The position numbers were made by a program, and so were the translations under genes. The notes under the pieces are model-generated. The model was not told where the DNA came from. It saw only the letters and a program-made list of their open reading frames with translations, and did no database searches. This document shows positions 4,723-23,958 of a stretch of 23,958 bases of DNA, piece after piece. The stretch's first letter is position 1, and each line of letters begins with the position of its first letter. Source of the DNA: a virus; the IMG/VR virus record IMGVR_UViG_3300046028_000120, positions 1 to 23,958 of that record, one strand, 5' to 3'.

Positions 4723-4740
4723 GCTCTTGTAGCTTGACTA

Positions 4741-4766: not shown

Positions 4767-4767
4767 A

Positions 4768-4796: not shown

Positions 4797-4805
4797 GCAG
4801 TCACT

Positions 4806-4860: not shown

Positions 4861-4885
4861 TTCACTTGTATGTAAGGAAACTATC

Positions 4886-6875: not shown

Positions 6876-7159
6876 TGGGCTCCCCATACAAGGATTCAGT
6901 GCCTGTGCCGGACCCAGTGTCGCCAATGCCGAAGAAGGCAGCGTCTAAGCCAGCACCGAAGCCCGCGCCTAAAAAGGACAAGGATTATGTCTACCCAGAC
7001 TCCACTCCTGTTGCAGATAGCGCAGGTATGAAGCGCGGCGGTAAAGTTAAGAAGATGGCTAGCGGTGGTTCTGCCTCTAGCCGTGCCGACGGTATTGCTC
7101 AACGTGGTAAGACTCGCGGCACTATGCTGTGCAGCGGTGGAATGACTAAAAGGAAGTAA
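6875..7159 (+). CDS. Pro/Lys-rich small protein with RADGIA module
   Basis: The 94-residue product has a Pro/Ala/Lys-rich linker (10-37), then GMKRGGKVKKMASGGS (51-66) and SRADGIAQRGKTRG (69-82), ending in TMLCSGGMTKRK. The C-terminal half is nearly the same as the C-terminus of the next gene. I chose ATG 6875, which overlaps the preceding TAA by one base and follows AAAGGTGGG; the GTG at 6869 is weaker. The linker plus cationic tail looks like a tether ending in a short binding module. The function is unknown. Confidence 0.55.
   Translation: MGSPYKDSVPVPDPVSPMPKKAASKPAPKPAPKKDKDYVYPDSTPVADSAGMKRGGKVKKMASGGSASSRADGIAQRGKTRGTMLCSGGMTKRK
7025..7120 (+). repeat. C-terminal module, copy A (MKRGGKVK...SRADGIAxRGKTRG)
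   Basis: The codons for GMKRGGKVK and SRADGIAQRGKTRG closely match those at 7606-7707 in the next gene, differing mostly at third positions. This suggests duplication of a coding module followed by selection on the protein. More diverged copies of the second half lie at 6774-6818 and 9062-9103. Confidence 0.6.
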
Positions 7160-7161
7160 TC

Positions 7162-7719: not shown

Positions 7720-7953
7720 ATGATGTCCAGTCGAGGGATGGGGGCCATCTCCCCCTCTAAGATGCCCAAGGGTAAGCAGACAGCTCGCCGGGATAACACC
7801 GACTTCACTCAATACGCCGAAGGTGGGCAGGTAGGCTTGTATGCGAATATCAACGCAAAGCGTAAACGAGGCGCTAAAATGCGTAAAGCAGGTGCCAAGG
7901 GCGCTCCTACGGACCAAGCATTTATTGACTCAGCAAAAACTGCAAAGAAGTAA
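7720..7953 (+). CDS. Small basic phage protein, unknown function
   Basis: The 77-residue, Lys/Arg-rich product starts directly after the previous stop (TAA then ATGATG), so the start could be either ATG. It opens with MMSSRGMGAISPSKMPKGK and has a central YAEGGQVGLYANINAKRKRG (32-51). The end has KGAPTDQAFIDSAKTAKK. I recall this order from short proteins in the same neighbourhood of environmental phages. It lacks the ADGIA motif but shares the cationic Gly-rich style (EGGQV resembles RGGKV). No function is known to me. Confidence 0.55.
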   Translation: MMSSRGMGAISPSKMPKGKQTARRDNTDFTQYAEGGQVGLYANINAKRKRGAKMRKAGAKGAPTDQAFIDSAKTAKK

Positions 7954-7956
7954 ACA

Positions 7957-8649
7957 ATGACTATCTCCGGCACCACTGCATTTAACCTCGATCTCGTTGA
8001 GTTAGTTGAGGAAGCGTTTGAGCGATGCGGTGGGGAGCTGCGCACTGGTTACGACCTTAAGACAGCCCGCCGTTCACTGAATCTTATGTTCGCCGACTGG
8101 GCGAATCGTGGTTTGAACATGTGGACGTTTGAGCAGGGCTCGATTGCCTTGACTCCCGGCACCGGCACTTATGACTTGCCAGCCGACACTGTAGATTTGT
8201 TGGAGCATGTGATTCGTACTGGGGCTGGTAGTGCTTCTACGCAAGCAGATTTAACGATTACCCGCATTAGTGTTTCTACCTACGCTACGATTCCGAATAA
8301 GCTGCAACAAGCTCGCCCGATTCAGATTTACATTGATCGTAGGCAGGAAATCCCACAGGTAACTGTGTGGCCCATCCCAGATAACGTGCAGACCTACACA
8401 CTGGTGTACTGGCGTTTGAAACGAATTGACGATGCTGGCACGGGCGTAAATACGATGGATGTACCATTTCGGTTTATACCCGCCATGGTTGCTGGCCTTG
8501 CTTACTACCTCGCTATGAAGGTGCCGACTGGCGCTGAGCGTTTACCAGTGTTGAAAGCCCAATATGATGAGGCTTGGCAGTTGGCTTCTGAAGAAGATCG
8601 TGAAAAGGCGGCGGTACGATTCGTGCCTCGCCAACAGTTTATTGGATAA
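7957..8649 (+). CDS. Head-tail adaptor candidate (P22 gp4-like tail accessory)
   Basis: The 230-residue protein begins with a helical region holding LVELVEEAFERCGGELRTGY (13-32) and SLNLMFADWANRGLNMWTFE (40-59). A small beta domain with LTPGTGTYDLPADTVDLLE (64-82) follows, and then helices up to the C-terminus. This order (helix bundle, short beta insert with YDLP, helices) is that of gp4-like adaptors that bind the portal ring from below and start the tail of short-tailed phages. The C-terminal VPRQQFIG could be the portal-binding tail. It pairs with the second adaptor-like protein at 9504, with zinc-ribbon and tiny basic genes in between. A tail-completion protein is an alternative. Confidence 0.65.
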   Translation: MTISGTTAFNLDLVELVEEAFERCGGELRTGYDLKTARRSLNLMFADWANRGLNMWTFEQGSIALTPGTGTYDLPADTVDLLEHVIRTGAGSASTQADLTITRISVSTYATIPNKLQQARPIQIYIDRRQEIPQVTVWPIPDNVQTYTLVYWRLKRIDDAGTGVNTMDVPFRFIPAMVAGLAYYLAMKVPTGAERLPVLKAQYDEAWQLASEEDREKAAVRFVPRQQFIG

Positions 8650-8652
8650 GCC

Positions 8653-9039
8653 ATGGGCAATAGGTTTGCTTCCGGCAAGAACAGTATTGCGGAATGTGAT
8701 CGCTGCGGGCAGCGGTACAAGCTAAAGCAACTGAAGCAAGAGATCATCAAACTTAAGACGTTTAACCTCTTGGTTTGCCCAGAATGCTGGGACCCCGATC
8801 AGCCTCAGTTGCAACTAGGTATGTTCCCTGTGGATGACCCACAGGCAGTACGGAATCCAAGGCATGACCAAACGTATGTAACGTCTGGCCTAAACAGCTT
8901 AGGGAATCCCTCTGAAGGCTCTAGGGAGATACAATGGGGCTGGAATCCAGTAGGTGGAGCCAGTCAATTTGATGCTGCACTTACGCCGAATTACTTGGCT
9001 TCTTTAGCAGAACTTGGTACAGTAACAGTTATTATCTAA
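8653..9039 (+). CDS. Zinc-ribbon phage protein
   Basis: Residues 15-45 contain CDRCG and CPEC, that is CxxC, 23 residues, CxxC, the classic four-cysteine zinc ribbon. After it come WDPDQPQL (46-53) and a Pro/Asp-rich segment, then a poorly conserved, likely beta or disordered C-terminus ending in LAELGTVTVII. Short proteins with this ribbon followed by a DP.PQ segment are common in head-tail regions of podoviruses and siphoviruses. The role is not established to my knowledge; a structural zinc in a connector component or a nucleic-acid contact are both possible. The ATG lies three bases after the adaptor stop. Confidence 0.65.
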   Translation: MGNRFASGKNSIAECDRCGQRYKLKQLKQEIIKLKTFNLLVCPECWDPDQPQLQLGMFPVDDPQAVRNPRHDQTYVTSGLNSLGNPSEGSREIQWGWNPVGGASQFDAALTPNYLASLAELGTVTVII

Positions 9040-9049
9040 GGAGCCAATC

Positions 9050-9238
9050 ATGGCATTCACACGATCAGCAGATGGTATCGCCTCTAAGGGCAAAACAGTG
9101 GGTAAAAACTATGGTGATAGTGGCCCATCCGTTGGTATCCAAAAAGGTGGTAAAGGCAGCAAAGGCGGCAAGACCAATGAAGAGATGCTGAAGTTGGGTC
9201 GCGGCCTCGCTAAAGTAGCTAACCAGAAACGAGGTTAA
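9050..9238 (+). CDS. Tiny basic protein with N-terminal ADGIA module
   Basis: This 62-residue protein consists mostly of the shared module RSADGIASKGKTVG (5-18), a Gly/Lys-rich linker (30-43) and a C-terminal helix with NEEMLKLGRGLAKVANQKRG (43-62). Here the motif sits at the N-terminus rather than the C-terminus as in the three upstream genes, so it behaves as a movable unit. AAGGAG precedes ATG 9050 at good spacing. The function is unknown. Confidence 0.55.
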   Translation: MAFTRSADGIASKGKTVGKNYGDSGPSVGIQKGGKGSKGGKTNEEMLKLGRGLAKVANQKRG

Positions 9239-11186: not shown

Positions 11187-12044
11187 ATGTTCGGGTTCGC
11201 ATCCTTTGCTGCGGCCCCGTTTGGGGCTGCCGGGGTAGCAGGCATTGCCTATGATGCGGCTGTGGATGAGTCTGCAGTAGCCTCGGACGTGATAGAGGGG
11301 TACGCGGTATTCCCTGCAGCCTTCTTCGATACCGCAATGGTATCCGATAGCGCATTGGTAGCCGCATCGCTTTTTGTGGCTGATGTTACGGAGTTGTCTA
11401 CGGCTGCAGATACCGTCTTGGCCTACGCGATATTTACCCCTAGCATCAGTGAAACTGCAGCTTCATCAGATAGCGTTCAAGTAGCAGTTACCTTTGTAGG
11501 CGAAACCCCCGAAGGCGCAACTGTTACAGAGTCCATGAGCGCCGTAGCGACCTTCATCTCAACTATGCAGGATACGATTACTGCGTCTGATACGGAGGCG
11601 GCAGCCGCGACGTTTGTTTCTTCTGTTACAGAGTTGAGCACCGCGTCCGAAACGTTCACTGCGATAGGTGTACTGAATGGAATAGTGTCGGAGACCGTCA
11701 CTGCCTCCGATACGTACAGTGCACGGGGTGTATTTGCTGCATTTATCGTGGAGATCGTGACTGCTTTGGATAGCACGTTGGTGGCGCCGTCGGTGTTTAA
11801 CGTAACTCTTAACGAGGCCGCGACTGCCTCCGATACGGCCTTGGCAAATGCGGTCTTTTTTGCTACCATCGTGGACAGCGCAAACGCTGCCGATAGCCTC
11901 CTTGCTCGGTTCTTGTGGGAGTTAATTGACGATTTTCAGTTGGCTAATTGGGGCAACATCAATACCGATCAGACCCCCGGCTGGAACGTAATCAGTAGTG
12001 ATGCGGTTCCTACAAGCTGGACTACTATAAACACAGAAATGTAA
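11187..12044 (+). CDS. Repeat protein of the tail/fibre block
   Basis: Residues about 22-240 of this 285-residue protein are roughly eleven tandem repeats of about 20 residues with consensus (E/D)xxTASDTxxAxxxFxxxV. The C-terminal tail (about 240-285) is different: a helix with LWELIDDF, then WGNINTDQTPGWNVIS and a final WTTINTE. Very acidic and Ala/Thr/Ser-rich, without Lys, Pro-poor. Such a chain could form a repetitive beta rod, a fibre spacer or a stalk, with the Trp-rich end as docking site. It lies immediately before two fibre genes. A ribosome site (AGGTAAC) is weak. The repeat count probably varies among relatives, which cannot be tested here. Confidence 0.6.
   Translation: MFGFASFAAAPFGAAGVAGIAYDAAVDESAVASDVIEGYAVFPAAFFDTAMVSDSALVAASLFVADVTELSTAADTVLAYAIFTPSISETAASSDSVQVAVTFVGETPEGATVTESMSAVATFISTMQDTITASDTEAAAATFVSSVTELSTASETFTAIGVLNGIVSETVTASDTYSARGVFAAFIVEIVTALDSTLVAPSVFNVTLNEAATASDTALANAVFFATIVDSANAADSLLARFLWELIDDFQLANWGNINTDQTPGWNVISSDAVPTSWTTINTEM
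11250..11910 (+). repeat. Tandem ~60-bp coding repeats
   Basis: About eleven diverged in-frame units encode the (E/D)xxTASDT pattern, one roughly every 60-63 bases. Several units keep near-identical codons around ACTGCxTCCGATACG (for example near 11700-11715 and 11820-11836), but most have drifted, so recombination between units is possible but not recent. Confidence 0.55.
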
Positions 12045-12053
12045 GAGGCGCAC

Positions 12054-15000
12054 ATGGCTATCGTCGTAAAAGATCGAGTAAAAGTTTCTTCCACCATCAT
12101 AGGAACAGGCACTGCTACGCTAGGCACTGCGGCCACCGGATACCAAAGTTTTAGTGCTATTGGCACCGGCAATACTACGTACTACACAATTGCAGATCAG
12201 TCGGGTGCGGACTGGGAAGTGGGTATCGGTACCGTTACAGATACCGGCGGTGGGGTCTATACGCTGTCTCGGGATACTGTGCTGGAGTCTAGCTCGGGCG
12301 GTACGCTCGTCAGTTTTACCATGGGCACCAAAGATGTGTTTGTCACGTACCCCGCAGAGCGCAGTGTGTACCTCGACTCGGCAGGCAGCTACCCAGTACA
12401 GAGTACGTTTAACGCAATCACAGCAAATTCAATTGCGCTGACTACCGGCACAATCTCTACTCAACCCGGCGCTGGTACGGACATTGCCAATAAAACATAC
12501 GTGGACACAGTTGCAGCGCAGGGCATTACATACCACGCTCCGGTCTATGTAGAGTCTCCAAGCACTGCCGGTAGCCTGAATGCCTTGTATAACCAGCCCG
12601 GGGGCGCCGGTGTAGGTGTCGGAGCTACGCTGACTAACAACGGGACTAAAGCCGCGCTGATGATCGACGGTGTGTTGATGACCACCACCAAGCGTGTCTT
12701 GATCTACAACCAGACCAATGCGTTTCAGAATGGCGTTTACACGGTTACCACAGTGGGCACACCTGACCCCGGTGGCACAAACTGGGTGCTTACTCGTGCT
12801 ACTGATGCGGACACGTATGCAGTAAACAGCCCTACCGCACTGGGCCAAGGGGATGCGTTTTTCGTCACTGCCGGTAATACAGGCGCGGGCGAGCTTTACG
12901 TGATGAACACCATTGGCACCATAACTTTTGGTACGACGAACATTACGTTTGCACAGATCAGCGCCGCGATTCCGTATATTGCGGGTACGGGCCTGAACCT
13001 CAACCCGTCCACTACGTTCAACATCTCAAACACAGGGGTTACCGCAGCTAGTTACGGAATTGCGGCACAGGTGCCCACACTTGCGATCAACGCCCAAGGC
13101 CAGATTACATCGGCAGTTAATACGCCTATTGCTATTGCTGTAGCGGCAGTTTCTGGTTTGGCGGCATCTGCTACAACGGATACAACGAACGCAGCTAACA
13201 TAACCTCCGGCGCACTTGGCGCGGCACGTTTGAGCGGTTCGTACACGGGGATTACCGGCGTTGGAGCATTGGCCGCAGGTTCTTTGGCTACTGGGTTTAC
13301 GGCAGTTTCCGCCCCTCTGGGTGGCACAGGACAGACTTCCTACGCTATTGGTGACTTGCTGTACGCGAGCACGACGACGGCCCTCTCCAAATTGGCTGAC
13401 GTAGCAGTCGGCAATGCGCTCATATCTGGCGGTGTAGCTGCCGCGCCAAGCTGGGGCAAAATAGGTTTAGCAACTCATGTGAGCGGCACCCTTCCAGTAG
13501 CTAATGGTGGTACAGGCGCTACTACCCTAACGGGCTATGTGTACGGCAACGGCACAGGGGCTATGACGGCTTCAACCAGCATTCCGAATGCAGCTACAAC
13601 GGCCACCTCTGCCAATACCGCCTCTGCTATTGTTGCCCGAGACATATCAGGTAATTTTGCCGCAGGGACGATAACTGCGGCCTTATCAGGCAACGCAACG
13701 ACAGCTTCATCGGCTACTTTCGCTACTTCTGCGGGGTCGGTGACCAATGCAGCTACTTTCAACAATGGTGGCGCGGGCGCGGTTTCCGGCTCAACGTTCA
13801 ATGGCGCGGGGGCTCTCACTGTTAGCTACAACACGGTTGGTGCGTCGCCACTGGCTGGTTCGGCTAGCTTGACTACAACGGGTACAGTTACCTCGGGAAC
13901 TTGGTCGGGCTCCTTCGGGGCTGTTAGTGGTGCCAACCTGACAAGTCTTACCGCTGCCAACCTGACAGGCACAATTCCAACCGCCGTTTTGGGTAACTCC
14001 ACAGCATATGTTGGGACTACCGCAGTACCACTAAACCGGGCATCCGCTAATCAGGCGATGACTGGCATCCTCAGTGTCACTATGCCGGGGTCTACATCAG
14101 GCTCTACGGTTTTAAAGCCCAGTGCCGCAGCGGGGACTACCACAATCACCATGCCCGCAACAACCGGGACGATGGCGCTGACTTCTGATATTCCATCGGT
14201 TGGTAACGGTACGCTCTCACTGGCTACGTCTGGCGTTGGCCTATCTGGGTCCGCCTCGTTTACAGCCAACCAAGCCGGTGCCGCGACCTACACAGTCACC
14301 TCCAATGCAACCTCGGCCAATACAGCCTCCACGATTGTCGCAAGGGACGGGTCGGGTAACTTCTCTGCGGGCACTATAACTGCGGCATTGACGGGTAATG
14401 CAGCTACTGCGTCAAATACGTCCTCCATCAGTAATGCTGTCGGAAACTCTTACACTTGGACTGCAGTAAATTACTTTCAATCTAACTTAGGGACTACCTC
14501 TGGAACACTAAATTCCCCGCCACTTCAAGTATACGCAACCGGTACAAATGCCGCTTTCATGGCCTTTCACCGAGGCGGAGCTTATGCAGTAAACATGGGC
14601 CTTGATTCTGACAATGTATTCCGCATTGGGGGCTGGTCAGCACCTGCTAATAGATTGCAAATGGATATGTCTGGTAATTTAACCATGGCAGGAACACTTG
14701 CAGGCACCAATCTGTCAGGTACTAATACAGGCGATCAAACAAATATATCGGGTAACGCAGCGACCGCTGGCGGGTTTACGCCATCGCAAACAAACGGAAC
14801 TGCCAACCGAATCGTTGTTGCAGACGCAAACGGTTACATAAACAACAACTATTTCAACTCTACCGACAACTCTACGGCTTCCGGCGTCTCCGCTGTAATG
14901 GTCAAGGCGGGAGACAATTATCTTAGGTCAGGTACTGCGGCTGCGGTAGCCACATTTATCAGCGGCCAGTCGATGAACATCGCTGGGTCTTCGACCTCGT

Positions 15001-15797
15001 GTTCTGGGAACGCAGCGACTGCATCAGCAACGCTTATGTCATCAGGCCGTACTGACGCTACAGCATATCCAGTTGTGTGGGCGACGACCGGCGCTAACTC
15101 GCAGATGTATTCATGCACTGCGGTGAACATACAGTCCAGTACCGGGACATTGAACGCAACAAATTTAAACGCAACAACGGGTGCGTTTTCTGGGCAAGTT
15201 ACGCAAAGCGGAAACTCCGCGACGATTTACGGCCCTAACTCGTCTTGGGCATCGTATTTACAAGTTGGCGGCAATGGGCGGACTGTTAGTGGAATAAATT
15301 ACGCCTCGATTGCTACTACTAATGGCAACATGCACATTGATTCTGGTTCCTCCATGGCGATGTACCTGAACTTCTACTCAGGGACAGCGGGAATAAATTT
15401 TGGGAATGGCGCAACAGGCATCATAGGGACAGTATCCGCTGCGGGTGCCCTTTCAATGAACGGCAACATTACCGCCTACTCCGATGAGCGCCTGAAGAAG
15501 GACTGGACTCCGCTGGTAAGCGACTTCGTTGAGAAACTTGCCGCCGTTAAGGCAGGGACTTACACACGTATCGACAGCGGGGAGCGACAGGCGGGTTCGT
15601 CTGCGCAAGACTGGCAAGAACTTCTACCTGAAGTCGTAACCGAAGGCGCAGACGAGGCCAAGACGCTCGCACTTGCATACGGAAACGCAGCTCTCGTATC
15701 CGCAGTAGAGTTAGCTAAACGAGTAGTGGACCAAGATATGCGGATTGCCAAGCTGGAAGCGCTCGTAGCGCAACTGACTAAAAACATCGCCCTTTGA
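12054..15797 (+). CDS. Tail fibre with C-terminal S74 self-cleaving chaperone
   Basis: This 1247-residue protein has four parts. Residues 1-105 are an anchor domain (MAIVVKDRVKVSS to KDVFVTYPAE) found at the start of many fibres. Residues about 140-305 form a second conserved domain (ANKTYVDTVAAQGITYHAPV onwards). Residues 305-1140 are a long Gly/Ala/Thr-rich beta shaft with GNATTAS and PLGGTGQTSY repeats plus a more complex domain near 800-895. The end is an S74 intramolecular chaperone: YSDERLKKD begins at Tyr1142, with Ser1143/Asp1144 as the expected cleavage pair and Lys1148 as partner. By analogy with endosialidase fibres, the last 105 residues guide trimer folding and are then released. 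It is the likely main receptor-binding fibre. Confidence 0.85.
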   Translation: MAIVVKDRVKVSSTIIGTGTATLGTAATGYQSFSAIGTGNTTYYTIADQSGADWEVGIGTVTDTGGGVYTLSRDTVLESSSGGTLVSFTMGTKDVFVTYPAERSVYLDSAGSYPVQSTFNAITANSIALTTGTISTQPGAGTDIANKTYVDTVAAQGITYHAPVYVESPSTAGSLNALYNQPGGAGVGVGATLTNNGTKAALMIDGVLMTTTKRVLIYNQTNAFQNGVYTVTTVGTPDPGGTNWVLTRATDADTYAVNSPTALGQGDAFFVTAGNTGAGELYVMNTIGTITFGTTNITFAQISAAIPYIAGTGLNLNPSTTFNISNTGVTAASYGIAAQVPTLAINAQGQITSAVNTPIAIAVAAVSGLAASATTDTTNAANITSGALGAARLSGSYTGITGVGALAAGSLATGFTAVSAPLGGTGQTSYAIGDLLYASTTTALSKLADVAVGNALISGGVAAAPSWGKIGLATHVSGTLPVANGGTGATTLTGYVYGNGTGAMTASTSIPNAATTATSANTASAIVARDISGNFAAGTITAALSGNATTASSATFATSAGSVTNAATFNNGGAGAVSGSTFNGAGALTVSYNTVGASPLAGSASLTTTGTVTSGTWSGSFGAVSGANLTSLTAANLTGTIPTAVLGNSTAYVGTTAVPLNRASANQAMTGILSVTMPGSTSGSTVLKPSAAAGTTTITMPATTGTMALTSDIPSVGNGTLSLATSGVGLSGSASFTANQAGAATYTVTSNATSANTASTIVARDGSGNFSAGTITAALTGNAATASNTSSISNAVGNSYTWTAVNYFQSNLGTTSGTLNSPPLQVYATGTNAAFMAFHRGGAYAVNMGLDSDNVFRIGGWSAPANRLQMDMSGNLTMAGTLAGTNLSGTNTGDQTNISGNAATAGGFTPSQTNGTANRIVVADANGYINNNYFNSTDNSTASGVSAVMVKAGDNYLRSGTAAAVATFISGQSMNIAGSSTSCSGNAATASATLMSSGRTDATAYPVVWATTGANSQMYSCTAVNIQSSTGTLNATNLNATTGAFSGQVTQSGNSATIYGPNSSWASYLQVGGNGRTVSGINYASIATTNGNMHIDSGSSMAMYLNFYSGTAGINFGNGATGIIGTVSAAGALSMNGNITAYSDERLKKDWTPLVSDFVEKLAAVKAGTYTRIDSGERQAGSSAQDWQELLPEVVTEGADEAKTLALAYGNAALVSAVELAKRVVDQDMRIAKLEALVAQLTKNIAL

Positions 15798-15841
15798 ACG
15801 GCCAAGTATCCTAAAATAGGGATGTAAACTAAGGAATAACC

Positions 15842-17347
15842 ATGACCACAGCAGCAACCGCCCTTCTGGGCCTAGCTCTCCCCGTTACAGGCGAACTGTC
15901 TGGTACATGGGGCGACACCGTAAACAACTCGATTACAGCCCTGCTGGACTCTGCCGTTGCGGGGACGACCAATCTTAGTGCGGATGCAGATGTAACCCTG
16001 AGCACGACCGCGCTGATAGCCAGTCAGGCCCGTCAAGCCATTATTTTGTGGACCGCTGGGGGTACTATCCTACGCACAATCACAGCGCCTGCAGCAAGTA
16101 AAGAATACATCGTCATCAACAAAACATCTAGCACCCAGTCGATTAAGATCGTCGGTGTAGGCCCAACTACCGGGGTAACTATCCCTGCGGGTACACAGGC
16201 TGTAGTTGCATGGAACGGTGTGGATTTCGTTGCGGTTGCCACGTCAAGCGTTAACTTAGCGTCTCAGGTTACAGGAACCTTACCGATTGCAAACGGTGGC
16301 ACAGCGGCAACAACTGCTTCTGCTGCACGGACAAGTCTAGGTTTGGCTATAGGAACCAACGTGCCGTCCCCGACGGGTACCGGAGCTTCAGGTACTTGGG
16401 GTATTAGTGTCACGGGCAACGCGGCAACGGCTACAAACCTTGCAACCACCCTAGCGATTGCAGGCGGGGGAACCGGAGCCATAACTGCAGGGGCAGCACT
16501 AACCAATCTAGGGGCGTATGCGGCCAGCAACCCAAGTGGGTACACCACGAATACGGGTACTGTGACTTCTGTGATTGCGGGTACAGGTCTCTCCGGTGGG
16601 ACGATCACAACCTCTGGTACCGTTGCGCTTGCCAATACAGCAGTTTCCGCAGGTGCCTATACAAACACGAACATCACCGTAGACGCTCAAGGGCGCATAA
16701 CCTCGGCAGCAAACGGAACCGCTGGTACTGTGACTTCTGTGATTGCGGGTACAGGTCTCTCCGGTGGAACGATTACAACCTCCGGTACCGTTGCCTTAGC
16801 CAATACAACAGTTTCCGCAGGTGCCTATACAAACGCTAGTATTACGGTGGATGCCCAAGGGCGACTGACTGCGGCTTCGACAGGTACATCCGGCGGTGGT
16901 GGTACTGTTACAAGCGTTGCTGGCACGGGGACTGTAAGTGGTTTGTCTCTCAGCGGTACCGTTACATCCATCGGCAACATTACTCTTGGGGGGACACTGG
17001 CTGTAGTCCCTGCTAACTTTGCATCGCAAACAGCAAATACCATTTTAGCTGCCCCTAACGGAGCTGCTGGCACTCCGACTTTCCGCGCTTTAGTAGCTGC
17101 GGATGTACCCACTCTGAACCAGAACACTACGGGTACAGCCGGGGGATTATCGGTAACACTACCTATAGCGAATGGCGGCACGGGCAACACCACCGGCACT
17201 GCGGTTAGTCTAGCAACAACAAACTTCACTGTAGCTCAGGTGGGAAGCAAGCTAGTGTTCTCCTACGGGGGCACGGCGATCATGTCTTTGGACTCTGGTG
17301 GTAATCTCATATCCCTAGCTAACGTAACTGCCTACGGCACACCATAA
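15842..17347 (+). CDS. Second tail fibre, no S74 domain
   Basis: The 501-residue protein begins with a recognisable module (GLALPVTGELSGTWGDTVNN, 10-29) found at the N-terminus of many phage fibre and appendage proteins. A shaft follows with GTLPIANGGTAATT-type repeats like those in the first fibre. At 239-350 two almost equal 56-residue units (GTVTSVIAGTGLSGGTITTS) lie in tandem. The C-terminus ends in SKLVFSYGGTAIMSLDSGGN and a short tail, with no chaperone domain. AAGGA lies upstream of ATG 15842. The two fibres and the adhesin downstream may make one branched or sequential host-recognition apparatus. Confidence 0.75.
   Translation: MTTAATALLGLALPVTGELSGTWGDTVNNSITALLDSAVAGTTNLSADADVTLSTTALIASQARQAIILWTAGGTILRTITAPAASKEYIVINKTSSTQSIKIVGVGPTTGVTIPAGTQAVVAWNGVDFVAVATSSVNLASQVTGTLPIANGGTAATTASAARTSLGLAIGTNVPSPTGTGASGTWGISVTGNAATATNLATTLAIAGGGTGAITAGAALTNLGAYAASNPSGYTTNTGTVTSVIAGTGLSGGTITTSGTVALANTAVSAGAYTNTNITVDAQGRITSAANGTAGTVTSVIAGTGLSGGTITTSGTVALANTTVSAGAYTNASITVDAQGRLTAASTGTSGGGGTVTSVAGTGTVSGLSLSGTVTSIGNITLGGTLAVVPANFASQTANTILAAPNGAAGTPTFRALVAADVPTLNQNTTGTAGGLSVTLPIANGGTGNTTGTAVSLATTNFTVAQVGSKLVFSYGGTAIMSLDSGGNLISLANVTAYGTP
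16556..16885 (+). repeat. Tandem 168-bp repeat in the second fibre
   Basis: Copy 1 starts at 16556 and copy 2 at 16724, offset 168 bases (56 codons). The first 44 bases are identical and the rest differ mainly at third positions, so the duplication is fairly recent or homogenised. An unequal exchange would add or remove one 56-residue shaft unit without breaking the frame. Confidence 0.85.
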
Positions 17348-17357
17348 GGAGCCGAGC

Positions 17358-18500
17358 ATGACCCTCCCTGCCTCCGGTCCCATATCCCTGAACAACGTAA
17401 ACGTTGAGTTGGGGCTTTCGGGTACTGCTACTATTTCTATGAACGACGCTGCTGTGCGAACGTTGTTCGGAGTGCCCTCGGGCGCGATCTCGATGAGTAA
17501 CGGCTACGGCAAGTCCAATGCTTTCTCGTTCAACATTACGACAGGTACTGATAGAAACCTACGCACCCTAGCCGTCGCTGCAGGGTGGAATACGACGAGC
17601 GCAGTTATTGCCACAATTCCTTCAGGAAATACAATCAGTGCATCCAGCCTAGCGGCTACGGCGTTGACGATCAATGGCTCCTTCCCAGCGGGTGTGACCC
17701 TAGTAAACTCCGGCACCGTCCTTGGCTTCACGGGCACGACTGGAACTACAGGTACTGCGGGCGGTACAGGTGCTACGGGTGCTACGGGAACTACGGGAAC
17801 TACAGGTGCTAATGGTGCAGGTGGTGCAGCAAGTGGCTTTGGCGGTAATGGCGGGCCGGGTTCGGCTGGCGGCGGTGCCGGTAACGGTGGTCCCGGTGGT
17901 ACAGGTGGTATTGGTGGCAATGGAACTGCAGGTGGTACAGGTGGTACAGGTGGCCTTGCATTGAGTGTGTCTGTTGCAACATCTGTCAACAACCTTGGCT
18001 CACTTGTAGGCGGTGTCGGTGGTACGGGTGGTACAGGTGGAGCGGCTGGCGCTGGTGGTACAGGTGGTACTGGTGGTCCCGGTGGCACTCGCGCAGGCGG
18101 CGGTGGTGGCGGTGGCGGCGGTGGCTCATACTTATCAGGCGGTAAATTTCCAACATGTACGCTCTCCGCTGGCGGTGCTGGCGGTCGTGGCTCTGGCGCG
18201 TCAGGCGGCGCTCTTGCGGGTGCTGCGGGGGGTACTAATGCAGGTACGGGTGGTACAGGTGGAGGTAGCGCGGCAGCAGGTGCTGCGGGCGGCAATGGTA
18301 TCAATGGTTGTGGCGGCTCTGGTGTTGGTGGTGCTGGCGGTGCTGCGGGTGCTGCAGGTGCTCTTGGCCTTACTGGTGGTACAGGTACAGCGGGTTCTGC
18401 TGGCGGCACAGGTGCTGCAGGGGCTAGGGGCGCGTATATAGCGGGTACCGCAAATGTTACATGGATCAATTTTGGAACACGAACAGGAACAGCATCATGA
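17358..18500 (+). CDS. Glycine-rich adhesin (gp38-like, polyglycine-helix type)
   Basis: This 380-residue protein has an N-terminal docking module (1-55, with ISMSNGYGKSN), a small domain (56-122, with RTLAVAAGWN and ALTINGSFPAGVTLVNSG) and a Gly-rich region (about 125-362). The end is IAGTANVTWINFGTRTG. The Gly-rich part is broken by short loops (LALSVSVATSVNNLG near 200; SYLSGGKFPTCTL after a run of ten Gly; GINGCGG). That is the layout of T-even gp38-type adhesins, where polyglycine-II helices carry variable loops that touch the host receptor. The place right after two fibres supports this. AAGGAG precedes the ATG. Generic low-complexity Gly protein is the alternative, but the ordered end domains argue against it. 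Confidence 0.7.
   Translation: MTLPASGPISLNNVNVELGLSGTATISMNDAAVRTLFGVPSGAISMSNGYGKSNAFSFNITTGTDRNLRTLAVAAGWNTTSAVIATIPSGNTISASSLAATALTINGSFPAGVTLVNSGTVLGFTGTTGTTGTAGGTGATGATGTTGTTGANGAGGAASGFGGNGGPGSAGGGAGNGGPGGTGGIGGNGTAGGTGGTGGLALSVSVATSVNNLGSLVGGVGGTGGTGGAAGAGGTGGTGGPGGTRAGGGGGGGGGGSYLSGGKFPTCTLSAGGAGGRGSGASGGALAGAAGGTNAGTGGTGGGSAAAGAAGGNGINGCGGSGVGGAGGAAGAAGALGLTGGTGTAGSAGGTGAAGARGAYIAGTANVTWINFGTRTGTAS
17728..18430 (+). repeat. GGT/GGC-rich coding microrepeats in the adhesin
   Basis: Units such as GGTGGTACAGGT, GGTGCTACG and GGTGGCGGC recur many times, always in multiples of three bases. Slippage or recombination would change the number of Gly-x-x units or swap loops while keeping the frame, a plausible source of host-range variation. 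Confidence 0.7.
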
Positions 18501-18901
18501 TTAAATACAAAATAGTTGAAGTAAACCAAGCCGGGCACTCAATTGTCGTGCGGTATTACACAGAAAAAATCACGGAAACCATGTTGGCTACTGATACCCT
18601 TGACGGAGTTATCCGTCGCTGCCGTACAGACTACAGTATGGATTTACCTATCCCTGCGCCAGAAGGTGCGGAGCTGGAGCAGTTTATTATGCTTCGCGCC
18701 CCTGCAGACTGGCTTGTTAACATGGAAAAGATTAACGATACTGCGAGCCCTGTGTCTATGGACGCGCTCGTTGCCTTGATTGGTGTTGAGAAATCTCAGG
18801 AGCCGTTGGTGGTAACCAGTATTGCACCGCCGCAAAACGAAGCCGCCCTCACGCTGAAGATTAAAGAAGTCGTAACTGAAATGCTCCAAGGGACCGTATA
18901 A
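18497..18901 (+). CDS. Small protein after the adhesin, unknown function
   Basis: The 134-residue product starts at ATG 18497, overlapping the adhesin stop (ATGA), with AGGAA eight bases upstream; an upstream in-frame ATG at 18461 lies inside the adhesin and lacks a site. The N-terminal half is a beta fold with IVVRYYTEKITETMLATDTL (17-36, using this start) and CRTDYSMDLPIPAPEG; the rest is helical and acidic. I recall similar short proteins next to fibre genes. Coupling to the adhesin makes a fibre-assembly or adhesin-chaperone role possible, but no chaperone signature is visible. Confidence 0.55.
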   Translation: MIKYKIVEVNQAGHSIVVRYYTEKITETMLATDTLDGVIRRCRTDYSMDLPIPAPEGAELEQFIMLRAPADWLVNMEKINDTASPVSMDALVALIGVEKSQEPLVVTSIAPPQNEAALTLKIKEVVTEMLQGTV

Positions 18902-18903
18902 CC

Positions 18904-19776
18904 ATGCGTTTTCTCGCCACTCTGCTGCTGGCCCTATCCAGCTCCGCTGCGTTCGCTGCGCTACCCGATACTCTGACGTTCTATTCCCCCAACCCAACGG
19001 GAACACAGACGGTTGCGTGCCGAACACTGGCTAAACTATATGATGAGAAGTATGGCACAACCAGTACGGTTGCGTTCAAGCCCGGTGTTGCTGGTGTGTT
19101 AGCAATGAAGGAGATGCTGGCCGATAAGAAGTTTGCCATGCTCTGTTCAGGTATTTCCGAGAGCGTCATCAACACCAGCGTATACCCCGGCTACGAAGAA
19201 GACCACAAACAACTGACGATGGTGTCGGTTGTAGCACTCAGCCCTACAGTATTCAGCACAAGTGCCAGTAGCAAGTTCAGCAGTTTGCCAGAGATGCTCA
19301 AAGCGGGTAAGTCGATAACAGTTGGCTACCATTCAAGCTCGTTACAGTTTGTGGCTAAAGCTGCGCTGGCCGGTGCGCCTGTTATCTGGGTGCCGTTTAA
19401 GGCGGGGGCTGATGGCGTACCGTCGCTTGTAGATGGCTCTCTTGATTTATATGTTGACGGCGGCGCATTGTCGGCGCTTATCGCTGCGGGAAAGCTAAAG
19501 AGCTTAGGGCATATCAACGGCCCCGCTACTACTGCTGGACCTGACATAAGCAAACAGTACCCTGCGGCAGCTAAGCTGCAAATCATCGTTGCACTGTCTA
19601 CCTCGATCAAAAATAACCCCGCCGACATCGAAGAGATGAACAAGCGCTTGGTTCCCCTGACTAAACACCCTGAGTTCATCGCGGCCATAAATAAAGTCAG
19701 CAACACTCCGGTGCAAATGTCGGTAGCGGAATCAAATGGTGTAGTTGAACATTTCCGCAAAGAGTTCTACAAGTAA
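18904..19776 (+). CDS. TctC/Bug-type periplasmic solute-binding protein
   Basis: The 290-residue protein has a clear signal peptide: positive start, hydrophobic core and AFA cleavage site at residues 16-18. The mature part is a two-lobed binding-protein fold. Residues 139-186 hold the family's central region: TVGYHSSS, then VPFKAGADGVPSLVDGSLDL and YVDGGALSALIAAGKLKSLG, matching the VP(Y/F)KG...AL.DL..G.VD pattern of TctC/Bug proteins. These periplasmic proteins capture carboxylates and other organic acids for the TctAB transporter; no TctA or TctB is present here. Two cysteines (39, 81) could form a disulfide. It lies two bases after the previous stop, has AAGGGA upstream and overlaps the next gene by one base. 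It would be exported by the host Sec system. The bound substrate is unknown. Confidence 0.8.
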   Translation: MRFLATLLLALSSSAAFAALPDTLTFYSPNPTGTQTVACRTLAKLYDEKYGTTSTVAFKPGVAGVLAMKEMLADKKFAMLCSGISESVINTSVYPGYEEDHKQLTMVSVVALSPTVFSTSASSKFSSLPEMLKAGKSITVGYHSSSLQFVAKAALAGAPVIWVPFKAGADGVPSLVDGSLDLYVDGGALSALIAAGKLKSLGHINGPATTAGPDISKQYPAAAKLQIIVALSTSIKNNPADIEEMNKRLVPLTKHPEFIAAINKVSNTPVQMSVAESNGVVEHFRKEFYK

Positions 19777-20906
19777 TGCACCCACACAAGCGCCTCGGTA
19801 CGTATCGTGTTGGGGCTGCTGAGTTCCACACGCGGGCAGACGCACTCGTGTATGCGTCGATTTCAGGCGAGGAGCCTCGGTGGGACTTTAATGAGGATGT
19901 GTTCGGTACCGTAGACTGGGCGACACCCGTTGAGACCCCGTTACTGGAACTCTACCGGCAGCGTGCGCAGCAGCTCCGCGATAGATACGATTTCGTATCC
20001 CTGTTCTTCAGTGGTGGGGTGGACAGCACCATGGCGCTCCATGCGTTCATTGACAACAACATCCACTTAGATGAGATCGTCATGTACCGACCAGCCCGGA
20101 TGGTCCCCAAGGCCAACAAGACCGATCTGTCTAGCGGCAACATCTTCTCGGAGATTGAGTTCGCTGCGGTTCCCCATCTACAGGAGCACCTGCGAGATAG
20201 CAAGACGGTAGTCAGATTTTTAGACTTAGACGTAAACGTTGAGAAGTTTCTGGCAAACGAAGGGGCGATGGCCCAATACACATCCCTGAAGAACCCAAAC
20301 CCAAATTATTTGGCTAGGCTGGCGATGTGCACCCAAGACCCAGTGTGGAATGCGCTGTACTTAGCCGACAAGAAGGTGTGCCATATCCAAGGCGTGGACA
20401 AGCCGGTGGTCAGCTTTCGCAACGGGGAATACTATTTCCAGTTCAACGACAACATGCTGATGAACGTATTTACCCCCGCCTTCGGTTCAGCGAGTGCCGA
20501 TATGGTCGCCAAAAACCAATTCCACGAACTGTTCTACTGGACGCCTGATTTACCCCAGCTAGTCGTTAAACAAGCGCAGACCGTCAAGAACTTGGCCCAG
20601 AACAACACATTATTGCGACTGCTTATTTCAGGCACGTACAACGTTAACGAGAGCACCATGGTGCCCATCCTAAAGTACATATACCCATCGCATGTAGTGG
20701 CTGTACGCGACAGGTTCACTGTCGGTAAAATAACCTCGACCATCAAGGCACCACACAATAAATGGTTCTTTGATATGATGCCTGCACGTACCCAAGGTGC
20801 ATTTGCAGATATGCTACGCGCACTGGAAGCTAAGGTCGATAGTCAATATTTGAATCTGATTACGCACGACTTGACGGTATTCAGAAGCCCGTTTTACAAG
20901 ATTTAG
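19776..20906 (+). CDS. PP-loop ATP-pyrophosphatase-like enzyme
   Basis: This 376-residue protein has an N-terminal part (1-70) with EPRWDFNEDVFGTVDWATPV (33-52) and helices rich in Arg. The nucleotide-binding PP-loop follows: FFSGGVDST, with SGGxDS at 79-84 and LDEIV on the next strand. The remainder (about 105-376) has helices and conserved-looking polar segments (PNPNYLARLAMCTQDPVWNA) that I cannot assign. PP-loop enzymes adenylate a carboxyl, amide or nucleobase carbonyl before adding N or S (QueC, GuaA, AsnB, TilS families). I recall similar PP-loop proteins in cyanophages. The start overlaps the solute-binding gene (TAATG), so both are co-translated. The acceptor substrate is unknown, and no glutaminase domain or CxxC site is visible. 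Confidence 0.75.
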   Translation: MHPHKRLGTYRVGAAEFHTRADALVYASISGEEPRWDFNEDVFGTVDWATPVETPLLELYRQRAQQLRDRYDFVSLFFSGGVDSTMALHAFIDNNIHLDEIVMYRPARMVPKANKTDLSSGNIFSEIEFAAVPHLQEHLRDSKTVVRFLDLDVNVEKFLANEGAMAQYTSLKNPNPNYLARLAMCTQDPVWNALYLADKKVCHIQGVDKPVVSFRNGEYYFQFNDNMLMNVFTPAFGSASADMVAKNQFHELFYWTPDLPQLVVKQAQTVKNLAQNNTLLRLLISGTYNVNESTMVPILKYIYPSHVVAVRDRFTVGKITSTIKAPHNKWFFDMMPARTQGAFADMLRALEAKVDSQYLNLITHDLTVFRSPFYKI

Positions 20907-20914
20907 GACTGTGT

Positions 20915-21388
20915 ATGATCGACCCGTTCACAGCCTTCGCAGCAGCCCAAGCAGCCGTTAAGGGTATCAAAGCAGCCATTGCCTTAGGTAAGGATATCCA
21001 GTCGGCCAGCGGGGACATCTTAAAATTCTTTGATGCTAAAGACACGCTAACAATTGCCAGCACGAACCCCAAGAAAGCCGGTGTCAAAAAATCAGACATG
21101 GCCCGAGCGGCAGAGCTTGTTCTGCACGCGCACCAGATTCAGAAGGCAGAAGCCGACCTACGGGAGTATTTGATCTACACCGGCAATGCCCAGATATGGG
21201 ACCAGATGATGGTAGAGCGCAACCGGATTCAAGCCGAGCGCCGGGCGGATGAAGCTAAGGCAAAGAAGGCACATGCGAAGAAATTGGAAGAGATCAAAAA
21301 CGCCACATTGCTGACCCTAGGTGCGTTGCTGCTATCCATCTTGATTTACCTGACCATTAACATCACAATCGAAGTTACAAAACCATGA
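20915..21388 (+). CDS. Tail-anchored coiled-coil membrane protein
   Basis: The 157-residue product starts with MIDPFTAFAAAQAAVKGIKA (1-20), an Ala-rich helix I recognise from conserved phage proteins near the lysis or internal-virion genes. A helical middle follows, with a Lys/Glu/Arg coiled coil (about 97-129) and one C-terminal membrane segment (131-151, LLTLGALLLSILIYLTINIT). The N-terminus is therefore probably cytoplasmic or inside the virion. It could be an ejection protein or a holin partner. The start follows AGGA at short spacing and the 3' end overlaps the next gene. Confidence 0.6.
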   Translation: MIDPFTAFAAAQAAVKGIKAAIALGKDIQSASGDILKFFDAKDTLTIASTNPKKAGVKKSDMARAAELVLHAHQIQKAEADLREYLIYTGNAQIWDQMMVERNRIQAERRADEAKAKKAHAKKLEEIKNATLLTLGALLLSILIYLTINITIEVTKP

Positions 21389-22002
21389 GCGATAAGAAGT
21401 TAAACGCCAACACAACGCTTGACAAGGTTCTCGGGTATGTGGACTCGCCGTTTAAACTTGCAGCTATCCTTATCATGGGCTTGGTCGCTTTCGCTGGTTA
21501 CTTTGTTTACACAAACCAAGACCTTCTCATTGGGGCCTACAAAGAGTCCAAGAAGGTACCCAGCATTGCCGAGGACAGGGTTGAAGATGCCTCTGCCCAC
21601 CTGTTCAAAACCACCAACGCCACTATCGTTGCGGTGTTTAAAGTTAACCCCATGTTTGGGACTCGTGTGTTGTACCGGGCCTACGCCAAGGACGGCAGAG
21701 ACAAAACCAATGACGGGCTGGATGTGGGACTGTTTACAAACAACGCAGCCAATAATGCTGACGTTGTAAAGCTGATGGCAAACGAAGTCCCTTGCGGGGA
21801 GTACCGCACAGCGCAGTCTGAAATGGGTATTTGGTACATCAACAAGGGCGTTACCTATACTTGCAGAATCAGTGTTCCACCAGAGCCGGGGCGGTTCGTG
21901 GGGCAGATAACCGTGGGGTGGGAGACGGAACCCACAGACTTAGAATCAGCACGAACCATGCTTAGTATTGCCGCAACCATGCTTTCAAGGAGTAAACAAT
22001 AA
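21385..22002 (+). CDS. Membrane-anchored globular protein, GAF-like end suspected
   Basis: The 205-residue protein has one N-terminal membrane segment (about 23-43, FKLAAILIMGLVAFAGYFVY). The soluble domain (about 60-203) holds alternating strands and helices, including ATIVAVFKVNPMFGTRVLY (79-97), VGQITVGWE (172-180) and a final helix SARTMLSIAATMLSR (188-202). This order resembles small GAF/PAS-type sensory folds, but I rate that as weak. Cysteines 137 and 160 could pair, which would fit a periplasmic domain. It overlaps both neighbours (ATGA at the start, TAATG at the end). The neighbour at 22002 is the holin, so a role in timing lysis or in membrane attachment is possible. Confidence 0.5.
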   Translation: MSDKKLNANTTLDKVLGYVDSPFKLAAILIMGLVAFAGYFVYTNQDLLIGAYKESKKVPSIAEDRVEDASAHLFKTTNATIVAVFKVNPMFGTRVLYRAYAKDGRDKTNDGLDVGLFTNNAANNADVVKLMANEVPCGEYRTAQSEMGIWYINKGVTYTCRISVPPEPGRFVGQITVGWETEPTDLESARTMLSIAATMLSRSKQ

Positions 22003-22460
22003 TGTTTGACATTTCAGGACTGCTGCAAGTAGGCGGCAAAATCATCGACAAGTTAATCCCCGACCCTGAAGCCAAGGCACGGGCACAACTCGAACTGGCA
22101 ACGCTGGCTCAAACTGGCGAGTTGGCGCAAATGGCAAACGACACCAAGTTGGTCGAGTTGAGTAACGCCAACACTGACAGCGCTCGTGACATGAACGCCA
22201 AGGTACAGGAATCAACCAGTGCATCATGGCTGGCAAAAAACACGGCCTACGCGCTGGACATCGGGATTGTCTCGGCCACCATCTTCTTGGCGTGGTTTGC
22301 GTTTATGAAGGGCGTTCCAGATGCCAATAAAGAGCTGGTGTATATGGCGCTTGGCTCACTTATCACCATGTCTGGCACCGTGCTGAACTTCCACCGTGGT
22401 AGTTCTCAGGGCTCCAAAGACAAGGGTAGCGAAATCCAAAAACTCAAGGAACAACAATGA
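22002..22460 (+). CDS. Holin (3TM, gene-transfer-release type)
   Basis: The 152-residue protein has a soluble N-terminus with LIPDPEAKARAQLELATLAQ (18-37) and then hydrophobic segments (about 73-101 with LDIGIVSATIFLAWFAF, and 111-128). The polar tail holds FHRGSSQGSKDK. That is the signature of the three-transmembrane holin family known from gene-transfer agents and many phages. It opens the inner membrane so that the endolysin coded directly after it can reach peptidoglycan. AAGGAG lies just upstream, and the stop overlaps the endolysin start (ATGA). Confidence 0.8.
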   Translation: MFDISGLLQVGGKIIDKLIPDPEAKARAQLELATLAQTGELAQMANDTKLVELSNANTDSARDMNAKVQESTSASWLAKNTAYALDIGIVSATIFLAWFAFMKGVPDANKELVYMALGSLITMSGTVLNFHRGSSQGSKDKGSEIQKLKEQQ

Positions 22461-22969
22461 GAAACAACTTTGCCGAAGCCCTGCAAGCCCTGCTGAAACA
22501 TGAAGGCGGCTACGTAAACCATCCGTCCGACCCCGGCGGCATGACCAATCTGGGGGTTACTAAGAAGGTCTGGGAAGAGTGGGTCGGCCATCCGGTAACC
22601 GAAGCTGCCATGCGTGCGCTTAAGCCCGAAGATGTTGCTGCCCTGTACAAGGCTAAGTACTGGGATAAGGTCCAAGGCGACTTTTTACCCGACGGTGTAG
22701 ACCTTGCGGTGTTCGATGCGGCGGTCAATTCTGGTCCCGGACGGGCAGCAAAATGGCTTCAAGAGCTTGTGGGTGCTAAGGCAGATGGCGTAATTGGCCC
22801 CCAGACGCTAACTACTGTCGGGCAGATCGACCCCAAAAAGCTCGTGGCAGATTACAATGCCCACAGATTGGCGTTCCTAAAGGGACTGCCGACATTCCCT
22901 ACATTCGGTAAGGGCTGGTCCAACCGGGTAGCCGCTGTGACGACCGAAGCGCTTGCCATGACCGCATGA
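22457..22969 (+). CDS. Endolysin, GH108 N-acetylmuramidase
   Basis: The 170-residue protein shows the GH108 signature KHEGGYVNHPSDPGGMTNLG (14-33) with catalytic Glu16. A C-terminal peptidoglycan-binding type 3 domain follows (about 90-165), with FDAAVNSGP (86-94) and KADGVIGPQTL (108-118). It cuts the glycan strand of peptidoglycan to release virions. Its length is typical for the family. There is no signal peptide, so it needs the holin for export. AAGGAA precedes the start, and the start overlaps the holin stop. No Rz/Rz1 spanin pair is obvious nearby. Confidence 0.9.
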   Translation: MRNNFAEALQALLKHEGGYVNHPSDPGGMTNLGVTKKVWEEWVGHPVTEAAMRALKPEDVAALYKAKYWDKVQGDFLPDGVDLAVFDAAVNSGPGRAAKWLQELVGAKADGVIGPQTLTTVGQIDPKKLVADYNAHRLAFLKGLPTFPTFGKGWSNRVAAVTTEALAMTA

Positions 22970-22977
22970 GGTGAAAC

Positions 22978-23958
22978 GTGCCTTTACAGAAGATTCTCCT
23001 TAAGCCCGGAATTAACCGAGAAAACACTCGGTATACAACTGAAGGCGGGTATTACGAATCAAATTTGGTTCGCTTCCGCCAAGGCACGCCTGAAAAAATT
23101 GGCGGTTGGCTACGTATTTCTGCGAACACGTTTACAGGCATCTGCCGTTCACTCTGGAATTGGGTGACTTTGGCGGGTGCTAACCTAGTTGGTGTGGGTA
23201 CAGAAAGCAAGTTTTTCATTGAGCAGACGGGCGTGTATTTTGACATTACCCCAATTGCAAACACGCATGTGCTGGGTGCAAATCCCTTCACTACTGTTAA
23301 CGGTAGTAAGTCGGTCGCGGTTGCTGATGCTACGTACCTACCTGAAGTAGGTGATTACGTTATTTTTTCCAATGTCACTACTTTTAACAATGTAGACCTC
23401 GAAGGAGAGTTCCAAGTAGCTTCATTGTTGAGTACGACAGCATACACAGTAACGGCTAATACTTTTGCCAACGCAAGCGGTTCTGGTGGCGGTTCTCCGG
23501 TGTACGCTGCGTACCTAATTAAAGCTGGTCTTTTGGTGGTTGGTAACTTTTTGGGTTGGAGTTCTGGTGCGTGGGGTAGTTCCAACTGGGGTGGCTTGGG
23601 TCAAACTGCGAGTTCGGATGTAAGACTATGGACGCAGTACAACTTCGGCGAAAATCTGGTACTTGGTCCTAAAAAGGGCGCACTATACTTCTGGAACGCT
23701 TCGACTGCACCTGTACTACTGTACCCAACAGCAATAAGTATCTCCAATGGTTCTCCTGCGTTAGTGACGCTCACCACGAATACAGCCACTACGCTGCTAG
23801 ACGGTACGGCGTTAATGTTTGAAACTACAGGCGTTTTGCCAGCTCCGTTGGTTCCGTTCACGGTGTACTATGTTAAGTACCTGACACCAACTACATTTAA
23901 TTTATCGCTTACTTTTGGCGGTGCGGCGATTAACACTACCACCGCTGGGTCAGGGTCT
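22978..23958 (+). CDS. Tail nozzle/stabilisation-type protein (3' end outside window)
   Basis: A GTG start follows GAGGTG (22968-22973) and is eight bases after the endolysin stop. From it 327 codons stay open to the end of the window. The N-terminus reads PLQKILLKPGINRENTRYTT and then ESNLVRFRQGTPEKIGGWLR (about 29-48), followed by FTGICRSLWNWV. That start is typical of the large beta-propeller-like proteins that form the nozzle or stabilise the tail of SU10/P22-type podoviruses. Later residues are Thr/Gly/Ser-rich strands. It is one of the few structural genes located downstream of the lysis genes here. The C-terminus is not visible. Confidence 0.65.
   Translation, partial: MPLQKILLKPGINRENTRYTTEGGYYESNLVRFRQGTPEKIGGWLRISANTFTGICRSLWNWVTLAGANLVGVGTESKFFIEQTGVYFDITPIANTHVLGANPFTTVNGSKSVAVADATYLPEVGDYVIFSNVTTFNNVDLEGEFQVASLLSTTAYTVTANTFANASGSGGGSPVYAAYLIKAGLLVVGNFLGWSSGAWGSSNWGGLGQTASSDVRLWTQYNFGENLVLGPKKGALYFWNASTAPVLLYPTAISISNGSPALVTLTTNTATTLLDGTALMFETTGVLPAPLVPFTVYYVKYLTPTTFNLSLTFGGAAINTTTAGSGS

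Follow-up and report, generated by a model that had tools for sequence, protein, structure and literature searches.

Behind two tail fibre genes, the window (the whole stretch of DNA analysed, an entire virus record of 23,958 bases) carries a gene for a glycine-rich protein, and we asked what this protein does and how it is held on the phage. The ORF spans exactly 17358-18500 on the plus strand and encodes 380 aa. Its ATG lies 10 nt past the stop codon of the preceding fibre gene and 6 nt past AAGGAG (17346..17351, +), a sequence that overlaps this stop codon and that we take, from the consensus, to be the likely ribosome-binding site. Compared with the closest relative, L004, the frame shows 36 synonymous and 16 non-synonymous differences (pN/pS 0.19) and is under purifying selection. 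A long minus-strand ORF (17504-18538) appears to be the Pro/Ala-rich mirror of the Gly codons. Based on the ORF, homology, the structural model and purifying selection, we annotated the product as a gp38-type receptor-binding protein, here called the adhesin.

Fibre A and fibre B precede the adhesin gene, which is followed first by a small ORF, then by two accessory genes and then by a region that encodes a glycosyl hydrolase 108 endolysin. Because a major head protein gene is found at 3811-4722, we regard this as the virion gene region of a tailed phage. Fibre A (12054..15797, +, 1247 aa) carries a C-terminal Peptidase_S74 chaperone at 15480-15794 (Pfam E 2.5e-8), with NITAY before it. A Pfam scan detected no S74 domain in the adhesin or in fibre B (15842..17347, +, 501 aa), the proposed partner fibre. 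A megablast of 12000-23958 against phages gave no match. The original prediction of an adhesin with variable loops outside the T-even phages is supported by the gene context, a tail gene region, together with the changes relative to L004 given below.

Evidence for the gp38 type came from the family. The window protein alone matched no Pfam family, BLASTP with T2 gp38 returned nothing meaningful, and the PDB phmmer matches of the single sequence, a kinesin fusion and collagen, were rejected as composition only. When a 48-member alignment (A5) was compared with T2 gp38, hhalign gave a score of 82.2 over 225 columns (columns 30 to 310 of 313), against at most 25.5 for 60 shuffled gp38 sequences and 18.6 for reversed gp38. 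The match begins at column 30, inside the N-terminal domain that we call the dock, and without the Gly part the likeness is marginal (gp38 residues 41-118 score 22.9, shuffled maximum 19.0). Scanned singly at E up to 0.01, 35/48 members matched Pfam GP38 (PF05268, best 2.8e-12) and 39/48 matched phrog_2056, 'tail fiber protein; host specificity'. A profile search of 177,635 PDB sequences placed PP01 gp38 first, but at E 0.043, with S16 gp38 at 4.1.

The AlphaFold2 model of the whole protein has a mean pLDDT of 70.5 and a pTM of 0.66. Confidence exceeds 85 in the middle domain, in strands 202-217 and at the C-terminal end. The middle domain (residues 55-123; 17520..17726, +; pLDDT mostly 91-96) is predicted to form the first part of a beta-helix, the strands within residues 198-217 (17949..18008, +) its next ring, and residues 357-380 (18426..18497, +) its closing strands. 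Foldseek matched three PDB chains below 1e-3, all gp38 (PP01 at 2.6e-6 and 8.5e-5, S16 at 1.1e-4), with modest TM-scores of 0.34-0.38 by query length. VIA superposed residues 53-380 on the receptor-binding domain of gp38, with Z 18.3 for S16 gp38 (6f45_D; 241/248 residues aligned, rmsd 6.0) and Z 17.8 for PP01 gp38 (9v85_C; 207/222 residues, rmsd 2.8); the next-best entry after both gp38 structures reached Z 5.8. This fold evidence is not fully independent of the sequence evidence, because AlphaFold2 may know S16 gp38 from training. The distinct C-terminal cap that had been predicted is indeed ordered (88-94), and conserved, but is not distinct: it is the last turn of the same beta-helix, and by alignment and superposition its strands correspond to the last gp38 residues. 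Likewise, the predicted gp38 design holds for the receptor-binding part, while the attachment domain with three Trp helices is absent.

The adhesin shares with T-even gp38 (S16, PDB 6F45; PP01, PDB 9V85; T2) the succession of an attachment part, a beta-helix, a Gly-rich part with variable loops and closing beta strands, the gene position directly after a fibre gene (as in T2), and probably one monomer per fibre trimer. It differs in its dock, which has three ISL/ISM repeats without Trp in place of three Trp helices, in its partner fibre, which is of the S74 or NVTAY-end type in a phage that is not T-even, and in a first Gly turn of 74 residues. A gp38-type adhesin outside the T-even phages is already known in kind, since entries from Rhizobium and Agrobacterium phages in BFVD are named Gp38, and excerpts of PMC9608196 describe Pam3 gp24, a cyanophage tail fibre with a glycine-rich domain, as a receptor-binding lattice of this sort. 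According to the same excerpts, Pam3 gp24 differs: it forms a trimer of its own, its middle domain is TNF-like, its N-terminus is long and helical, and it needs a separate chaperone, gp25. The TNF-like middle domain and the long trimerising N-terminal helix are absent from the adhesin, where the N-terminus is a 54-aa three-repeat dock and the rest superposes on gp38.

Next to the beta-helix parts, the sequence contains the Gly-rich region that had been predicted, about 235 residues (124-358) with 109 Gly, against 126/380 over the whole protein, and the run of ten Gly is present at residues 247-256 (18096..18125, +; read from the sequence and the tandem-array listing). The first Gly-rich turn (residues 124-197; 17727..17948, +) would correspond to helices 1-2 of S16 gp38, in which, according to the excerpted text of PMC6851490, the Gly lattice grows from beta-helix turns. 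The main part (residues 218-356; 18009..18425, +) is a candidate polyglycine II lattice with loops, modelled at low confidence. Gly recurs at positions i and i+3 within 124-358 in 76 instances; the triplet pattern thus exceeds composition, as the maximum in 2000 shuffles was 67. Structure prediction, suggested as a check on the polyglycine helices, gave the gp38-type fold and left these helices as candidates.

Part of the modelling would suit a disordered or collagen-like low-complexity linker without any polyglycine lattice. Over most of the stretch the pLDDT is 37-71, falling below 50 at residues 140-183 and in parts of 237-291, and DSSP assigns nearly no secondary structure; the GTT/GAT triplets at about 124-155 look collagen-like, and collagen IX is matched weakly, through composition (E 0.64). 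We nevertheless consider a linker very unlikely, because the Gly columns are conserved (mean entropy 1.44 in 58 columns, versus 2.52 in 55 non-Gly columns), the alignment with T2 gp38 is collinear across the whole stretch, and the superposition on both gp38 structures is as extensive as given above. We therefore keep a Gly-rich lattice with loops as the candidate.

Comparing loops between close relatives had also been suggested, and between the window and L004 (97% identical) the substitutions do fall mostly in loops. All 380/380 codons align with no indel; of the codons that differ, 29 are silent and 12 change a residue. All 12 changed residues lie in 210-364, with zero in the dock or middle domain. 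Residues 255-290 (18120..18227, +) hold 7/12 of the residue-changing codons and 6/29 of the silent ones (Fisher 0.03, for a region chosen post hoc). Together with the column entropies, these changes agree with a feature of gp38 adhesins, in which conserved Gly motifs are separated by hypervariable loops. According to PMC12892980, such loops contact the receptor OmpC in the case of PP01.

It had been proposed that triplet microrepeats allow the loops to change fast. Tandem arrays exist, but they are imperfect (9, 18 or 27 bases), with 62-76% matches in the long ones; the Gly run is encoded by the purest array of at least three copies (18096-18125, 90%). We tested loop change driven by repeats and discarded it, given the alignment with L004 without indel and the position of 11/12 residue-changing codons outside every tandem array listed (codon 235 lies inside one). 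The first Gly turn is another matter. It is 74 residues long in the window and in L004 but 14-34 in 46 further members (median 23), so that one older expansion is likely; slow expansion of one Gly turn is plausible.

How, then, is the receptor-binding part attached? The predicted ordered N-terminal dock was recovered in the models, with a pLDDT of 64-84 per ten residues in the whole-protein model and 85.8 overall when modelled alone. This domain (residues 1-54; 17358..17519, +) consists of three tandem 17-18-residue repeats, delimited by profile self-comparison: repeat 1, residues about 5-21 (17370..17420, +), ASGPISLNNVNVELGLS; repeat 2, about 22-39 (17421..17474, +), GTATISMNDAAVRTLFGV; and repeat 3, about 40-53 (17475..17516, +), PSGAISMSNGYGKS. 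In the self-comparison of the dock profile (109 sequences), offsets 35, 18 and 17 give the three best diagonals, which link one unit three times; this unit reads SGAISLSQVNTELG, ATISLNDAAVRTLAG and SGAISMSNGYGKS in the consensus. Without gaps the best score was 17.6, and 500 column shuffles reached at most 15.9; with gaps it was 22.6, and 100 shuffles reached at most 12.3. The models place one helix in each repeat (residues 11-17, 31-37 and 46-49).

The dock matched little that is known. No Pfam family was detected in any of 88 docks at E 0.01, a search of the PDB with the dock profile gave nothing below E 0.09, and the dock modelled alone matched no PDB structure, a weak test with a 56-residue model. 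Its likeness to the gp38 attachment domain therefore rests on the whole-chain superposition. The library entry phrog_26817 covers residues 1-78, i.e., the dock and the start of the middle domain (E 6.9e-11), and has no function assigned. In S16 gp38, as excerpts of PMC6851490 describe, the attachment domain has three helices, each with a Trp, that meet the fibre trimer every 120 degrees. Since the dock lacks Trp and its sequence shows no likeness to T2 gp38 (score 10.9), it would be either a very remote gp38 relative or an independent solution.

We collected docks from 21 loci, the best 80 of 239 relatives, the best 80 of 83 obtained with a single relative (L061) as query for the middle domain, named phage records and a Duganella locus, which gave 122 distinct dock proteins among the matches listed after removing repeats of the first 120 residues. 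One narrow pattern run over 84,980 species genomes found a single dock (Duganella), which suggests that prophages rarely carry it; one query of plasmids found no dock. The gp38-type middle domain is present in 64 of the 122 dock proteins (57 complete); 20 were Gly-rich without it, and 38 were neither. In Vibrio nt-1, for instance, the dock belongs to an FG-GAP protein; short dock proteins occur in Vibrio PhiImVa-1 and, as a more distant case, in Pseudomonas PA5oct. BLASTP sorted the C-terminal parts into 15 groups among the matches listed, a rough number of cargo kinds because the unmasked search merged 103/122 proteins, partly through Gly-rich composition. Four pairs of docks with at least 85% identity have C-terminal parts without a match, and two or three dock genes occur in 6 distinct loci, in tandem in four of them (L050, L078, L079, L087), again among the matches listed. 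The converse also occurs: in Limnohabitans YIMV22061 and Macromonas BK-30P, the adhesin part lacks the dock and follows a fibre with a different end.

Two further observations concern single proteins. Three gp38-type parts have other short N-termini, which start with MSGI or MSFAV (L103:4950; L175, ORF 778-1743; L348, ORF 4426-5202) and may represent further attachment types. The dock protein of Providencia phage PSTNGR1 (L346:4501-5454) contains a CFTEDCLVLMADGSLKRI stretch, which looks like a Hint/intein start, and is possibly a self-processing tip protein.

The position of dock genes points to what the dock may bind. Pairing was counted for the 120 distinct dock genes among the matches listed with at least 600 nt upstream, 2/122 having too little sequence. 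In 84/120, the end of such a fibre lies within 100 nt upstream (S74 type in 40, neck type in 44), and in 17 more it lies within 3 kb; the same test downstream found a fibre end in 2/106 among the matches listed. In a cruder control with other same-strand frames of at least 120 aa, an S74 or neck end was near the start in 81/1534, a count that includes alternative frames over dock genes. A neck was defined as a frame ending in [NGDSTA][VI][TS]A[YF] plus one to eight residues; asked of frames of at least 60 aa, the pattern fits 79 of 19,373 frames of at least 40 aa, duplicates included. Among the matches listed, 42 distinct S74-less partner fibres stop 1-4 residues past [TS]A[YF], with GTP in 22. 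This motif is present by definition because the neck pattern requires it, and the evidence lies in its place and its rarity. Among the distinct adjacent S74 partners listed, N[IV]TAY, which was not used to find them, precedes the S74 site in 31/38.

Fibre A belongs to the Peptidase_S74, or endosialidase-type, fibres (PF13884). Fibre B differs in having no chaperone domain, and the adhesin is encoded as a protein of its own instead of belonging to an S74 chain. The end of fibre B, NVTAYGTP (17321..17344, +), equals the sequence that precedes the S74 domain in its sister fibres, and from the translation and the end pattern across loci we propose it as the dock socket. S74 domains cut themselves off after that sequence, as described for endosialidases.

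We also looked from the S74 side, scanning with S74 core alignments (the best 80 of 553 and the best 80 of 566 relatives). Once 38 duplicates, 14 ends with too little sequence and 1 whose site could not be read had been dropped, 117 distinct S74 ends followed by at least 1 kb of sequence were left. Among these matches, a dock follows within 100 nt in 34/117 and within 3 kb in 40 more, and in 27 of these 40 an S74-less neck fibre lies between, the order seen in the window. In the other 43/117, no dock was detected within 3 kb; three of these ends (in L261, L280 and L286) are nevertheless followed by apparent divergent docks. The share of 74/117 is not an unbiased estimate, because the S74 queries came mostly from dock loci and the lists hold the best 80 of 553 and 566. 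Among the matches listed, a Tyr or Phe lies at most 4 residues before the S74-site Asp in 74/74 ends with a dock and in 33/43 without; Fisher 2e-5 overstates this, because related sequences are not independent. All ten exceptions (seven with AN) fall in sample A6, and in sample A7 all 64 ends have the aromatic residue, which makes the association a lead and not a proof. In isolated phages the same order is found in PhiImVa-1, PSTNGR1 and Cygsa01 with S74 fibres, and in Pasto with a fibre ending in GNISAYT.

The adjacency could instead reflect a cluster of host-recognition genes, with the dock binding something other than a fibre end, e.g., the baseplate or capsid. No fibre is annotated within 5-6 kb on either side of the dock gene in Vibrio nt-1, PVA23 and Pseudomonas PA5oct, and no such fibre lies within 3 kb of 19/120 dock genes among the matches listed, some of them near a contig end. 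Even for proteins with a dock and a gp38-type middle domain, the adjacent fibre end is missing in 14/60 among the matches listed. Against another target speak the one-directional adjacency within 100 nt and the three repeats, which suit a threefold partner. Further, one locus without a fibre nearby (L005) has two S74 matches elsewhere on its contig, and the same adhesin part without a dock (L103, L175, L024) does not adjoin such fibre ends in 3/3 cases, a small number, as is likewise the case in BK-30P. We therefore judge a different target unlikely and favour docking on the fibre end.

A gene directly 3' of a fibre gene could also encode an assembly helper of the Tfa / T4-gp38 kind, which would fold fibre B and not serve as the receptor-binding part of the virion, and fibre B indeed lacks an S74 chaperone of its own. 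Yet the folded part of our protein matches the adhesin gp38 of S16 and PP01, docks follow chaperone-bearing S74 fibres about as often as S74-less ones among the matches listed, and the loops vary while the dock and middle domain do not. In addition, the record of the distant PA5oct dock protein (36% identity, E 6e-4) notes ESI-MS/MS, without saying whether virions were measured. On this evidence a helper role is quite unlikely, and we retain the adhesin reading.

The sequences and the models support a gp38-type receptor-binding part, loop variation, a three-repeat dock and the pairing of its gene with S74-neck fibre ends. As a whole, these features are probably best explained by a single-chain plug of three repeats that would cap the threefold fibre tip and present an exchangeable gp38-type adhesin. 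The gene product would be the receptor-binding tip of a tail fibre, with one copy sitting on the end of the upstream-encoded fibre B. From homology and the model, its beta-helix would hold the Gly-rich lattice, whose loops would meet the host receptor as published for S16 and PP01 gp38. With its three repeats in tandem, a single chain suits a threefold end, so that one monomer could cap three chains; the repeats are seen in the sequence, and we infer the contact and the trimer. The socket may be the fibre end that becomes exposed in sister fibres once the S74 chaperone cleaves itself off after NVTAY, and fibre B, without a chaperone, would simply end at the socket sequence. Since this plug is joined to other tip domains elsewhere among phages, it may work as a common adaptor, and its loops would change through substitution and module exchange rather than repeat slippage.

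More tentatively, we lean towards the dock being a general plug-and-socket standard of lytic phages, which would fit S74-cleaved or naturally ending threefold fibre ends, read them through the terminal aromatic residue and mount interchangeable tips in podoviruses, jumbo phages and T4-related phages. If so, the S74 cut would gain a second purpose in exposing a docking site, and freeing the socket may be a reason why many fibres shed their chaperone. The sequence of a fibre end would then predict which adhesins it can carry, and the 54-residue dock would mark receptor-binding proteins where the gene after the fibre reads 'hypothetical protein'. An internally repeated plug would reconcile a threefold fibre with a single adhesin, without sequence similarity to the Trp-helix solution of S16. 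In searches of the open-licence PMC literature we found no description of the attachment domain, of the threefold repeat inside it, of how it is reused for different cargo or of the link to S74 ends.

Several observations concern the neighbouring genes. Fibre B is 99% identical between the window and L004, and fibre A diverges before about 15462 (74% across 266 codons of a partial gene, aligned roughly). In window 6393-9238, four small ORFs (6393-6875, 6869-7159, 7162-7719 and 9050-9238) have in common a short SRADGIAQRGKTRG-like motif, which looks like a tag copied from one small gene to another. Directly after the adhesin, a 134-aa small ORF (18497-18901) starts with an ATG that shares bases with the stop codon of the adhesin (ATGA); a scan of 18482-18898 gave no clear family for it. 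In several loci, further small ORFs separate S74 fibres from docks; these may be helpers. The next gene (18904-19776), placed between those for tail and lysis, encodes a TctC-type periplasmic solute-binding protein (Pfam TctC 2e-8), an unusual phage cargo that is 93% identical to its counterpart in L004. It is followed at 19776-20906 by a 376-aa protein with a FSGGVDSTMALHAF motif, which we liken to that of N-type ATP pyrophosphatases (Pfam match non-significant, 0.057). Its silent divergence to L004 is 0.47, above that of the neighbouring genes, which hints at exchange. Similarly, in Pseudomonas phage Cygsa01 (L347:5879-8028), two genes annotated as MnmA tRNA thiouridylase come after a dock adhesin, just as the ATP-pyrophosphatase-like gene comes soon after the adhesin in the window.
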